From NCBI GenBank assembly GCA_009380025.1, contig WHSP01000007.1:1-64000 (forward strand): a stretch of 64,000 nt of DNA, in the 5' to 3' direction. The translations under genes and the position numbers were made by a program. Shown in pieces: positions 52,920-64,000 of the stretch (the stretch's first letter is position 1; the number at the start of each line of letters is the position of its first letter). The DNA comes from Gemmatimonas sp. Lineage in GTDB: Bacteria; Gemmatimonadota; Gemmatimonadetes; Longimicrobiales; Longimicrobiaceae. Under the pieces are notes generated by a model. It worked only from the letters and a program-made list of their open reading frames with translations. It was not told the DNA's origin and did no database searches.

Positions 52920-53329
52920 GCGCGCGATAGCTGGTCGACAAGAGCGCACTGGCTCGGATGCCCATGACACGTGTGCATGAGCGACTGGCGCCGATCATTG
53001 CTGCGGGAGAGGCGGCTAGCTGCGCGTTGGTCGATCTCGAAGTGCTCTTCAGTGCGCGGAATGCGAGGGAATACGAGCGGATTCGTTCGAGGCGAGAATT
53101 GTCATACCTGCACGTGCCGAACAGCGACGCGATCCTGAATCGCGCGATCGAGGTACAGGGGAAGCTCGCAAAGCGCGGCCAACACCGTATCCCGATTCCC
53201 GATCTGATCATCGCCGCAGCGGCCGAGTCCGCCGGGCTCACGGTCCTGCACTACGACGCGGATTTCGATCTGATCGCAGCGGTTACATCCCAGCCAGTCG
53301 AGTGGCTCGTTCCTCGCGGGACCGTATAG
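52916..53329 (+). pseudogene. VapC-family PIN toxin with in-frame amber codon
   Basis: From a TTG at 52916, overlapping the vapB stop by four bases, the frame reads MSAR, then TAG (52928-52930), then LVDKSALARMPMTRVHERLA and continues to 53329. The PIN acidic residues are kept downstream: Asp in LVDKSAL, Glu in LVDLEVLFSAR, Asp in IPIPDLIIAA and near LTVLHYDADFD. In relatives the TAG position is usually Tyr. Starting at the ATG at 52958 loses the first catalytic Asp. Expression would need suppression or a non-standard start, so it is called a probable pseudogene. Confidence 0.72.
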
Positions 53330-55028: not shown

Positions 55029-55194
55029 CAAGGTGATCAATGGAGACGCTCCTGAGTAGACGTGGCGAGCAGGCGGTGACGCGGTCGCATGAGGTCGGCG
55101 CAAATGCTGAATATTTGCATCCGCGTCGGGGGGCGTCAACCTCTTGTGTACGGACGGTCGCGCCGGATCAGCAACGCGGATCGTGCCTCCATGC

Positions 55195-55223
55195 TTGACG
55201 ACGATTACGCCTTCCGGTAGCCT
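55195..55223 (+). promoter_or_regulatory. Possible sigma-70-type promoter for the MNT/HEPN pair
   Basis: TTGACG (55195-55200) and TAGCCT (55218-55223) are separated by 17 bases, about 50 bp before the nucleotidyltransferase start. The match is modest. Confidence 0.3.
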
Positions 55224-55275
55224 GCCAGTGAGACTTCTCGTCCCCTTTCGAGGTGGCCTGGCGGAGGGCTCGACA

Positions 55276-55620
55276 ATGCTTTACGAGAGGACGCCCTATG
55301 ACGAATGCCGTTCGCGCCGCGAGATAGGTGAGACACGCGCGGTCCTGGAGCGCGAGTACGGTAAGTGGCTCGATCGCGTCGTGCTTTTCGGATCTCAGGC
55401 TCGGGGGGACGCGACCTCTGACTCAGACATCGACCTTCTCGTAGTTCTGCGGCGAGAGGTCGTCGCAAGTGAGGAGGTTGCCCGGATGAGTCGTCATCTT
55501 GCAGATATCTCCCTTCGACACGACGTCGTAGCGAGCTGTGTCTTCGTCTCGGATGAGCGGTTCCAGAATGGGGCAAGTCCCTTTCTGATGAATGTTCGTC
55601 GCGAGGGAGTCGCGGCGTGA
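55276..55620 (+). CDS. MNT-type nucleotidyltransferase (MNT/HEPN system)
   Basis: About 114 residues from MLYERTPYDECRSRREIGE. VVLFGSQARGDATSDSDID has the GSx10DxD nucleotidyltransferase motif with both metal Asp. In MntA/HepT-like pairs this protein neutralises the HEPN partner, sometimes by adenylylating it. The open frame extends to 55144, but the family start is at this Met. It overlaps the HEPN gene by four bases (GTGA). Confidence 0.88.
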   Translation: MLYERTPYDECRSRREIGETRAVLEREYGKWLDRVVLFGSQARGDATSDSDIDLLVVLRREVVASEEVARMSRHLADISLRHDVVASCVFVSDERFQNGASPFLMNVRREGVAA

Positions 55621-56006
55621 CGTCAGAGCAGGAGGCACTAATCGCGAAGGCGGAGCGAAGTCTGGCGGCGGCGAAGACATTGCACGCGGAAAAGCATCCC
55701 GACTTCGCCATATCTCGATTGTATTACGCGATGTTCTATCTTGCCGAGGCGCTTCTTCTGGGTGACGGTCTCACTTTCTCCAGGCACTCTGCGGTAATCG
55801 CGGCATTCGGCAAGCACTTCGCGAAGACCGCGAGGCTTCCGGCCGAGTACCACCTGTTCCTCAGAGAAGCCCAGGACATGCGGAATCTCGGCGACTACGA
55901 TACGGGAGCGACGCTCACCGAGGCTGATTCAGCTGAGCAGCTGCGGCGCGCCGACGACTTTCTTCAGGTAGCGCAGCGGTTTTTGGACGACATGTCCAAG
56001 CGGTGA
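55617..56006 (+). CDS. HEPN domain protein (UPF0332 type)
   Basis: 129 residues from a GTG overlapping the nucleotidyltransferase stop. FAISRLYYAMFYLAEALLLG and SRHSAVIAAFGKHFAKTARL are the HEPN/UPF0332 signature, and NLGDYDTGATLTEADSAEQL the C-terminal helix. The Arg of the catalytic Rx4-6H motif is present, but the His is Tyr (RLYYAMFY), a substitution found in some relatives. Probably the toxin or effector half of an MNT/HEPN module, activity unproven. Confidence 0.85.
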   Translation: MTSEQEALIAKAERSLAAAKTLHAEKHPDFAISRLYYAMFYLAEALLLGDGLTFSRHSAVIAAFGKHFAKTARLPAEYHLFLREAQDMRNLGDYDTGATLTEADSAEQLRRADDFLQVAQRFLDDMSKR

Positions 56007-61405: not shown

Positions 61406-62212
61406 ATGGAAGCGAACGCCGTCACCTCCTGGACAGACACAACGACAGAATCTCTCGAGGGCGCCCTTGCCCACACCGAACGGGATGCGGAGCTGGCGCT
61501 ACGCGCCGAGTCTGCAGTTCACCGGGAGCTGAAGAGAGTCCGGAATTCCGCTGTGCAGGGGGCGCTCAAGGACCTCAGGAAGAGTCTCGCCGAAGCTGAA
61601 CAGCTTGCGGACGCGCTCCGCGAGTCGGTGCGGGTTCTGCGCGCAGGTTGGACATTCGATGAGCGTACCCACCTTGAATCCGGCGCCTACACGACCGAGC
61701 TCCTCGGCGTCGCGAGGGAGCAAGGGGTGAAGCTGTTCGAGCAAGACGAGCGGATCCTCAGCTATCCCTCGCTCGTCCGTTTGCTGCCCGGCGAGGCTGC
61801 CGTCGAGATCGATCGCAAACGCGAGAAGCGAATCCGGCCGTCCGTCCTCGCCGAACTGCTCGGCGCGCGCCAACAGAAGCCGCCACGGTTCAAGCCCGAG
61901 CCGTTCCTGGAAGCCCTTCTGCGAGCGTATCGCCTGGCTCTGCCGGAGAAAAAGGGACGAGCGATGGGCTCGACCGTGTCCCTCCTCGAGATTTATCAGA
62001 TTCTGACTCTCTTCCCCGGGAGTGCTCGGGATTACACCAAACAGGAGTTCGCACGGGACATCTATCTTGTCGACCAGAGCGGCGTGCGAACACGGGAAGG
62101 ATTGCGCGTGAGCTTCCCCGCGGCGACCGGGACCAAGTCCGGCGGCACCCTTTCGACCGTCACGCGGGAGGGCGAGCTGAAAGTGTACTACGGCGTAGCG
62201 TTCCGGCCATGA
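61406..62212 (+). CDS. Unrecognised protein of a putative defence operon, coiled-coil N terminus
   Basis: 268 residues. Residues about 15-85 are strongly helical and charged (RELKRVRNSAVQGALKDLRK, SLAEAEQLADALRESVRVL), probably a coiled coil. The middle has a basic stretch (EIDRKREKRIRPSVLAELLG) and the end YTKQEFARDIYLVDQSGVRT, then LKVYYGVAF. I recognise no family. Its stop overlaps the next ATG by four bases, so it is the first gene of a tight operon with two ATPase-like proteins. Confidence 0.75.
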   Translation: MEANAVTSWTDTTTESLEGALAHTERDAELALRAESAVHRELKRVRNSAVQGALKDLRKSLAEAEQLADALRESVRVLRAGWTFDERTHLESGAYTTELLGVAREQGVKLFEQDERILSYPSLVRLLPGEAAVEIDRKREKRIRPSVLAELLGARQQKPPRFKPEPFLEALLRAYRLALPEKKGRAMGSTVSLLEIYQILTLFPGSARDYTKQEFARDIYLVDQSGVRTREGLRVSFPAATGTKSGGTLSTVTREGELKVYYGVAFRP

Positions 62213-63186
62213 TTAGACCCGAGGATTACGTCGAGTTCGTCCGCCGGGAATATCTCGGGGAATTCGTACGTTCCGGAGGGGCAACAGTGAAGTTCGTGCT
62301 GCCACAGGACGGCCTCTCCATCGCCAATGTCGGGGAGGGATTGAGGCGAGCCGCGGAACAGGAAGGGTTTGTCTACGCACGGGTAGACGCGGCCGCCGTG
62401 AAGGTACACATGATCGACAAGGTGTTCAACGCCATTGCACGGCAGGTCGATTGGAACGCTCTCGCCTGGCACGTTGTCCGCGAAACCCTAGGCGAGTTGA
62501 GATTTGATATCCCGTCGGGCGAGTCTCGGCCGACACTGGAGGAGATCGCTTGCGCCAACGACTACGATCCCGCCGAGCTGCGTCGCGAGTTCAATCGGCG
62601 ACTGCAGACCAAGCTGTTCCGCGACTACCAGATGGCGCAGGAGTTCCGGATCGCGATGATCCGATTGTGTCAAGCCCAGGTGGACGCCAGCGCGGCTGCG
62701 CAGACCACGGCGATAGCGATCACCGATTGGCTGACGGGTGACCTAAAACGAATCGTCGCGCTCAAACCTGCGCTGATCTTCCAGAGGATCGGCCGGCACA
62801 ATGCGCGGCACATGCTGTTTTCGCTGGCCTGGTGGTTGACCCGAGCGGGCCGGGCCGGGCTCGTGCTCGAGCTGGACGTCCGCCGCTGCTTGCTGGCACG
62901 CCGTGCTGACGTGCCGCCGGATTCCGTGCACTACTCGAAGCCGGCGACACTCGATGCCTATGAAGTGCTGCGACAACTGATCGACGCGACCGACGAGCTG
63001 AGCTATTGCTTCACGCTGGTTTCTTGCGCGCCGGAATTCCTGACGGACCCCGCCCGCGGTGTCGACGCATACCTCGCGCTCAAGTTGCGAATCTGGGACG
63101 ACGTTCATGATGCCCGGCGGGCAAATCCTCTGTCTGCATTGGTCCGCCTGACCGCTAACGCTCCACCGCTCGAGGAGCGCGCATGA
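62209..63186 (+). CDS. BrxC/BrxD-like (DUF2791-like) protein lacking Walker A
   Basis: 325 residues. IRPEDYVEFVRREYLGEFVR, then EGFVYARVDAAAVKVHMIDK and VFNAIARQVDWNALA resemble the DUF2791/BREX ATPase group, with MAQEFRIAMIRLCQAQ in the middle. At the place a P-loop would be, the sequence is GGATVKFVLPQDG, which lacks the GxxxxGKS pattern. It is probably a regulatory or structural partner of the ATPase encoded next, with four-base overlaps on both sides. Confidence 0.65.
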   Translation: MIRPEDYVEFVRREYLGEFVRSGGATVKFVLPQDGLSIANVGEGLRRAAEQEGFVYARVDAAAVKVHMIDKVFNAIARQVDWNALAWHVVRETLGELRFDIPSGESRPTLEEIACANDYDPAELRREFNRRLQTKLFRDYQMAQEFRIAMIRLCQAQVDASAAAQTTAIAITDWLTGDLKRIVALKPALIFQRIGRHNARHMLFSLAWWLTRAGRAGLVLELDVRRCLLARRADVPPDSVHYSKPATLDAYEVLRQLIDATDELSYCFTLVSCAPEFLTDPARGVDAYLALKLRIWDDVHDARRANPLSALVRLTANAPPLEERA

Positions 63187-64000
63187 ACGAACGTCAGGTG
63201 CAGCAACGGCGTGCCATCGAGGCTTTGCGCTCCGGCGTTCCCAATCGTGATGCCGTGAGGGCATTGGGTTCTACCCAGGGCGCCATTGAACACAGCTTCG
63301 TCCAAAAACTCGTGGAGGTGCGCAGCGGCGCGAACGCGGGGGGTCTCCTGGTGGCCGGGGGCTTCGGAACCGGGAAGTCGCATCTCCTGGAGTTTCTGCA
63401 GCATCGGGCTCTCGAAGAGCGATTCGTGGTCAGCGAGGTGGTGATCAGTAAGGAGACGCCGCTGCACGATCCGGCAAAGATTTTCCGTTCCGCGATCGCC
63501 GCGGCGACGCTGCCGGACAGACGCGGGGACGCGCTCACGGCGATCGCCACGGCGCTCCGCTTCGACAGCCCCGACTACCGGCAATTCTACCGCTGGACCG
63601 GGACCCCCGAGGCGCGTCTCGACGAGCGCTTCGCCGCCACACTCTACCTGTACGAACAACTGGGAGCGGAGGACCTCGAGTTTTCCGACCGAATACGGCG
63701 GTTCTGGGCGGGAGATCCGATCACGCTGTCAGAGTTGAGGCGTAAGCTTCGCGAGTGCAGTCAGGCGGCGACTTGGGTGTTACCGAAGATCTCCACCCGG
63801 GAGTTGGCACTGCAGCGCTTCCGCTTTGCCGCCGGCCTTATGCGCTGCGTCGGATATGCCGGTTGGGTGCTGCTCTTCGACGAAGTCGAATTGATCGGCC
63901 GGTATTCGCTCCTCCAGCGAGCCAGATCCTACGCGGAGCTGGCTCGTTGGGTGGCAGGCTTCGACACTGAACCATTCCCGGGCGTTACCGCGGTGCTGGC
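63183..64000 (+). CDS. BrxD-like DUF2791 P-loop ATPase, partial (3' end outside window)
   Basis: 272 codons to the window edge. QQRRAIEALRSGVPNRDAVR, LVAGGFGTGKSHLLEFLQHR (Walker A at 59-66), VVSEVVISKETPLHDPAKIF and GWVLLFDEVELIGRY (Walker B about 228-234) are the features of the BREX ATP-binding protein BrxD/DUF2791. In type 2 BREX, BrxD is a core gene; DUF2791 proteins also occur beside helicases outside BREX. Overlaps the previous gene by four bases (ATGA). Confidence 0.85.
   Translation, partial: MNERQVQQRRAIEALRSGVPNRDAVRALGSTQGAIEHSFVQKLVEVRSGANAGGLLVAGGFGTGKSHLLEFLQHRALEERFVVSEVVISKETPLHDPAKIFRSAIAAATLPDRRGDALTAIATALRFDSPDYRQFYRWTGTPEARLDERFAATLYLYEQLGAEDLEFSDRIRRFWAGDPITLSELRRKLRECSQAATWVLPKISTRELALQRFRFAAGLMRCVGYAGWVLLFDEVELIGRYSLLQRARSYAELARWVAGFDTEPFPGVTAVL

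Follow-up and report, generated by a model that had tools for sequence, protein, structure and literature searches.

Three tightly linked genes stand at the end of the 64,000-nucleotide stretch of DNA analysed here (the window), and a sequence-only reading took them for a three-gene ATPase operon and a candidate anti-phage system, one of whose products resembles the BREX type 2 component BrxD. If these genes are part of BREX type 2 or of another catalogued defence system, then the other genes of that system are expected beside them and their proteins should group with its known members. Alternatively, they could form a defence system of their own, or serve the host or a mobile element in some other way.

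A five-gene operon at the window edge

The window comprises bases 1-64000 of a contig of 75,822 bases in total, which extends 11.8 kb past it; the source genome is 97% complete. The three open reading frames proposed are real, and the 4-nt ATGA overlaps described between them are present at the A/B and B/C junctions. However, the unit is larger than a three-gene operon. The window end cuts gene C at residue 272, and two further genes, D and E, lie past position 64000, so that A-B-C is a real part of a unit of five genes (Table 1). Ordinary metabolism downstream had been named beforehand as an outcome that speaks against the proposal. Instead, D and a SNF2 helicase come next, and only after E is there a hydrolase and a catalase-peroxidase (KatG) on the opposite strand. 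Two family-less ORFs and a Fic fragment follow, and a transposase closes the contig. No pglX, pglZ, BrxC, PglW, BrxHI or Lhr gene was found from the operon to the contig end (75822), and the absence of pglX, pglZ and brxHI noted within the window thus also holds beyond it.

Table 1. Genes of the operon and upstream features on the contig
Feature	Position	Strand	Description
Gene A	61406..62212	+	268 aa; coiled coil at the N-terminus, helical in the middle, beta hairpins in the C-terminal part; no known family
Gene B	62209..63186	+	325 aa; BrxD/ORC-Cdc6-like; no Walker A, degenerate Walker B; predicted dead partner of C
Gene C	63183..64439 (window holds 63183..64000)	+	418 aa; BrxD/ORC-Cdc6-like ATPase; Walker A and B intact
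Gene D	64442-64966		Outside window; 174 aa; no family
Gene E	64944-66497		Outside window; 517 aa SNF2 helicase; lacks the Mrr nuclease found in most relatives
PIN-domain protein (VapC-like)	52958..53326	+	Pfam PIN 37 bits; upstream context, outside operon
Nucleotidyltransferase and HEPN pair (MNT-HEPN type toxin-antitoxin)	55144..56003	+	Pfam NTP_transf_2 42.5 bits, HEPN 56.8 bits; upstream context, outside operon

The area before the operon was described as full of toxin-antitoxin remnants. A PIN-domain gene and an MNT-HEPN pair do exist, but the description is overstated: they are 5-8 kb upstream, and a Na+/H+ antiporter and a LuxR-type regulator stand between them and the operon. On the other side, past the window and 6.6 kb downstream of the operon, the Fic-domain protein (73073-73696) is a truncated defence candidate, which aligns to the C-terminal half of the PADLOC candidate PDC-S24 (290 bits).

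Components of the operon

Both B and C match the Pfam family BrxC_BrxD (PF10923), B with 48 bits over its C-terminal two thirds and C with 76.5 bits. Since both exceed the gathering score of 22.2 bits, they are members of the ORC/Cdc6-type BrxC_BrxD superfamily. The earlier description of the two proteins is borne out: C is a BrxD-like ATPase with intact Walker A (GGFGTGKS) and Walker B (VLLFDEVE) motifs, and B is BrxD-like and has no P-loop. Among 21 B homologues, the P-loop is missing from 20 and kept (GRPGSGKT) only in L056, a divergent locus of a Chloroflexota genome (L056:7132-10436). In a quick tree with long branches, built from B proteins, C proteins and two BrxD/SngB proteins, the B and C clades are separate (branch supports 99 and 98) and BrxD/SngB stands apart (96), while L056 is at the base of both the B and the C clade and is likely an early-branching form of the A-B-C module. 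Because the basal L056 B still has a P-loop, B is most simply read as a once active duplicate whose ATP site had gone by the time of the main radiation. Likewise, because the two clades are separate from each other and distinct from BrxD/SngB, B and C are predicted to be an ancient active/dead pair. Against the BrxD equivalog model (NCBIfam NF033438, cut-off 350 bits), B scored 47.9 bits and the window part of C 62.6 bits, both far below the cut-off. The SngB model gave a weak 26.8 bits with the window C and 59 bits with the L056 C; C and SngB are of the same superfamily and stand in separate clades. Additionally, a 1274-aa frame with a C-terminal BrxD-like domain is present in the window's own family (L012:5624-9448), a possible fusion or read-through.

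The first gene had been said to belong to no recognised family, and wider comparison agrees. The best Pfam E-value of A is 0.034, and 20 A homologues scanned one by one against Pfam gave no credible match. An AlphaFold model of A (pLDDT 75, built from 3 sequences) matched no PDB fold with E below 0.6, and PDB sequence hits of A were discarded as coiled-coil/helical-bundle noise. Similarly, D has no PDB match and, with 13 homologues scanned one by one, no Pfam match; its single-sequence structure model (pLDDT 40) is useless. The TerB domain was absent from the 20 A proteins and the 13 D proteins in the Pfam scan.

Gene E of the window scores 144 bits against Pfam SNF2-rel_dom and keeps all core SNF2 helicase motifs. 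Its best PADLOC matches are ZorD (230 bits), DpdE and DrmD, and ZorD is also the nearest PADLOC helicase of the full-length E proteins (228-254 bits); this likeness is partly generic SNF2 similarity. The best BrxHI/BrxHII model reached only 85 bits on the window E, and with SNF2-rel_dom at 144 bits and ZorD at 230, identity with the BREX type 2 helicase BrxHI was rejected. A C-terminal Mrr-type nuclease with an intact motif is present in 7/13 E copies (RDGG-D...QCK in six, SHDGG-D...QCK in L023), and Pfam Mrr_cat was detected in the two relatives tested (71.5 and 88.7 bits). The domain is absent from five copies (window, L043, L045, L048 and L054), and in the remaining one, L061, the nuclease region is present, the motif is gone and Mrr_cat is undetected. 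On the A-B-C tree, at least three changes are needed to explain nuclease presence and absence. The window copy is there the sister of L017, and because L017 carries the nuclease, the loss in the window copy is recent. An apparent match of the window E past its stop codon is not nuclease sequence, and no obvious second nuclease was seen beside nuclease-less E among the neighbour lists examined. On a neighbouring branch, D and E are replaced in L049 by a RAD25/PbeA-like helicase without PLD (510 aa, L049:9447-10976), which comes directly after A-B-C and scores 200 bits against PbeA.

Distribution and neighbourhoods

A-B-C is contiguous and in the same order at 20 loci, including the window. That the three genes might never be found together elsewhere can thus be set aside: they occur together in 19 other sampled genomes, from Chloroflexota, Actinomycetota and the window's own order, in different surroundings. 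Because all three proteins keep their order in these 19 genomes, the conservation of A-B-C is beyond chance. The full A-B-C-D-E series is found in order on one contig at 11 loci, again including the window, and is split over two contigs in L003; some others among the loci read are broken off by contig ends. Across loci, the operon genes mostly overlap or are at most ~25 nt apart. At four loci (L050, L052, L056 and L060), A-B-C stands by itself, D-E being absent from the vicinity; L061 has E and no D. In the A-B-C-only genomes checked, there was no close relative of E, only generic SNF2 proteins or nothing.

The presence of the operon is patchy, at ~0.5-4% of sampled genomes overall. A profile of A hit 17/400 Chloroflexota, 2/297 Actinomycetota and 2/395 genomes of the window's phylum, and a single A protein as query hit 4/154 genomes of the window's order. 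In one other genome of the window's genus that was searched, the operon was absent. A search of a genome collection with C returned two good relatives, L003 (Dehalococcoidia) and L004 (Chloroflexi). The same protein matched nothing in plasmids, and viral contigs yielded no relative.

Insertion sites differ between loci. Of the ~17 neighbourhoods that could be read, two are clear defence islands. At L044, ZacA/B/C (365, 473 and 591 bits) begin 52 nt after the operon, and a GmrSD-like Orf5 protein (560 bits) and an integrase-like fragment (by eye) lie upstream. Genes resembling a type I restriction set are seen by eye further upstream at this locus. The neighbours at L061 are SoFic (251 bits), a type IV restriction enzyme (910 bits) and PDC-S11 (424 bits). 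Most other loci have ordinary chromosomal neighbours, and enrichment of defence genes around the loci is suggestive at most. The proposal of a candidate anti-phage system is plausible, given the two defence islands and a helicase whose nearest relatives are defence helicases, although the surroundings of most loci do not speak for it. At L052, two tRNA-Val genes that are 76/77 identical stand 3.2 kb apart (L052:3934-7190), the second 52 nt before gene A, and the A-B-C genes have a lower third-position GC than several neighbours. A convergent 685-aa gene follows A-B-C there (L052:10570-12624); its product contains a PLD nuclease domain of the NgoFVII type and weakly matches AAA/RNA-helicase families. 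L052 has no E, and this gene is a possible alternative effector. The hydrolase gene flanking the window operon was sought as a guide to the empty insertion site and was found, distantly, in only 1/40 relatives.

Relation to known systems and proposed function

The operon resembles several known systems in part. As in the BrxD-BrxHI portion of BREX type 2, a gene for an ORC/Cdc6-type BrxD-like ATPase is next to a gene for an SF2 helicase, and BrxD, itself an ORC/Cdc6 ATPase, may load or activate BrxHI, as has been inferred (PMC12839542). However, BREX type 2 has one ATPase where the cassette has two diverged ones, one predicted dead, and a Ski2-like BrxHI where the cassette has a SNF2 plus Mrr helicase; moreover, PglX, PglZ, BrxC and PglW are absent from the cassette, and A and D are extra. 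Like Shango (TerB, ATPase, DEAD/DEAH helicase), the cassette groups an ATPase of the BrxD/SngB superfamily in one operon with a helicase and a further protein, but it has no TerB, its helicase is of another family and usually carries a nuclease, and it adds D and the predicted dead ATPase. Membership in BREX type 2 was rejected on the missing pglX, pglZ and brxC, the equivalog scores of B and C and their own clades, and membership in Shango on the lack of a TerB-domain SngA among the A and D proteins and on the same separate clades. A relative or derivative of either system, in which the BrxD-like ATPase was kept and the Ski2/Lhr-type helicase replaced by SNF2, would fit the Pfam matches of B and C, the weak SngB match of C and the coupling of a BrxD-like ATPase to a helicase in both systems (PMC12839542; PMC10250203). 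The distinct clades, the low equivalog scores, the lack of TerB, PglX, PglZ and BrxHI, and the failure of A and D to match anything make such a derivation quite improbable, and membership of BREX type 2 or Shango as such is largely refuted.

Other likenesses concern the effector. Full-length E (L004, L010 and others) shares with ZorD of Zorya type I the plan of a SNF2 helicase with an Mrr-like nuclease; ZorD is reportedly recruited by ZorAB and targets DNA (PMC11890865). The window E has no nuclease, and the ZorD scores mainly reflect the helicase core. The cassette also lacks the ZorA/ZorB motor and ZorC (no match among the window A, B, C and D), its E is shorter, and its partners are BrxD-like ATPases. 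PbeABCD, with the SF2 helicase PbeA and an ABC ATPase, is approached by the L049 variant alone, where a PbeA-like helicase follows A-B-C. That locus lacks the PLD domain and a PbeC-type ABC ATPase, no PT modification genes were seen, and the window locus has a SNF2 helicase rather than PbeA. PbeABCD is reported to block viral DNA replication with no visible cleavage (PMC6459918), which is disputed (PMC10853773). A passage of the disputing source describes conflict systems in which an active ORC/Cdc6 protein is likewise paired with a second, partly inactivated one. Unlike B, however, the inactivated partner there has lost Walker B but still has Walker A, and the other genes named in that passage are KAP, HerA/FtsK and REase, not SNF2-Mrr, A or D. 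The cassette belongs to none of the catalogued systems tested. No description of its combination of components was found in open-licence papers, where absence is not proof of novelty, and the five-gene cassette is apparently undescribed.

On balance, the five genes more likely than not form a mobile system that targets DNA, in all likelihood as a defence against phages or plasmids. The evidence for defence is circumstantial: its patchy spread, varied insertion sites, a helicase akin to ZorD, DpdE and DrmD, and the two loci in defence islands. By analogy with the systems above, we infer complex formation, DNA loading, a trigger, a phage target and roles for A and D as follows. B and C would together build a ring or clamp of the ORC/Cdc6 type, where ATP is hydrolysed by C and the dead B has a structural or regulatory part. 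A, a coiled-coil protein with a small C-terminal domain, is probably an adaptor or a subunit that recognises DNA or the trigger, and D is probably the factor coupling the A-B-C complex to E. The complex would detect or hold on to invading DNA and would load or activate E, the putative effector, which would translocate on that DNA and, in most copies, cut it with the Mrr-type domain. Where the nuclease is inactive or missing, as in the window copy, interference would have to rely on translocation or blockage alone, or on another nuclease. If this inference holds, the cassette would work like a BrxD-type loader joined to a ZorD-type effector, as a member of neither system. More tentatively, and at somewhat less than an even chance, it may be an undescribed modular immune system, in which A and the B-C pair are a fixed sensor and loader and the motor effector is replaceable (SNF2 with an active, dead or no Mrr domain, or PbeA-like).

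Several observations count against defence. Clear defence islands are few, C matched no plasmid or viral contig, the operon has no modification gene, which leaves the sparing of self DNA unexplained, and the four A-B-C loci without D-E nearby have no close E elsewhere in the genomes searched. ORC/Cdc6 ATPases and SNF2 translocases serve replication and repair too. The cassette could accordingly be a DNA-repair or replication-restart module that acts on the DNA of the cell itself, where the ORC/Cdc6-like pair would bring the SNF2 translocase, nuclease-bearing or not, to sites of damage or stalling; the ordinary chromosomal genes around most loci and the missing plasmid and viral relatives are in keeping with it. 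Yet a housekeeping module would hardly be so patchy, vary in where it is inserted, lose its nuclease repeatedly and exchange its helicase, and two loci are in defence islands, so a repair or restart role is considered unlikely. The variable insertion sites, together with the integrase-like fragment at L044, the transposase at the window contig end and the duplicated tRNA-Val beside L052, could also reflect a part of a mobile element that serves the transposition or maintenance of the element and not the host. This is very unlikely: across loci, the neighbours seen around the five genes include no conserved integrase or transposase gene, and defence systems themselves routinely travel on mobile elements.

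Whatever intact relatives do, the window copy might be a remnant in decay that no longer has a function. Compared with L010 and with its sister L017 it has lost the nuclease, and its E is short of ~110 N-terminal residues. Lineage-specific changes (window/L017/L010) show no window excess in A (28/30/36) and B (27/29/46), a mild excess in C (53/36/39) and a clear excess in D (55/17/13) and E (78/27/45). Across all pairs, only the D of the window stands out strongly. That nuclease loss generally speeds change in D was rejected, as the window copy alone shows a fast D. Nevertheless, none of its five frames is interrupted, it retains intact helicase and Walker motifs, the overlaps are kept, and a nuclease-less E is also found in four other genomes. 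Complete decay is therefore a real but minority possibility. Because the nuclease is missing, the N-terminus of E is short and D is fast-changing, the window copy may be impaired, and it is probably altered or weakening, though all frames are open.

If defensive, the cassette would add a system of several genes, among them two (A and D) whose protein families are absent from Pfam, in host phyla with few experimentally studied defences (~4% of sampled Chloroflexota carry A). The loci also provide a natural experiment, as one ATPase module is combined with a helicase whose nuclease is active, dead or missing, or with a different motor. It could thus be tested directly whether BrxD-type ATPases load helicases, which for BREX type 2 is a proposal only, and whether interference needs DNA cleavage. 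If the modular system is real, interference would be possible by DNA translocation or blocking, with cleavage optional.
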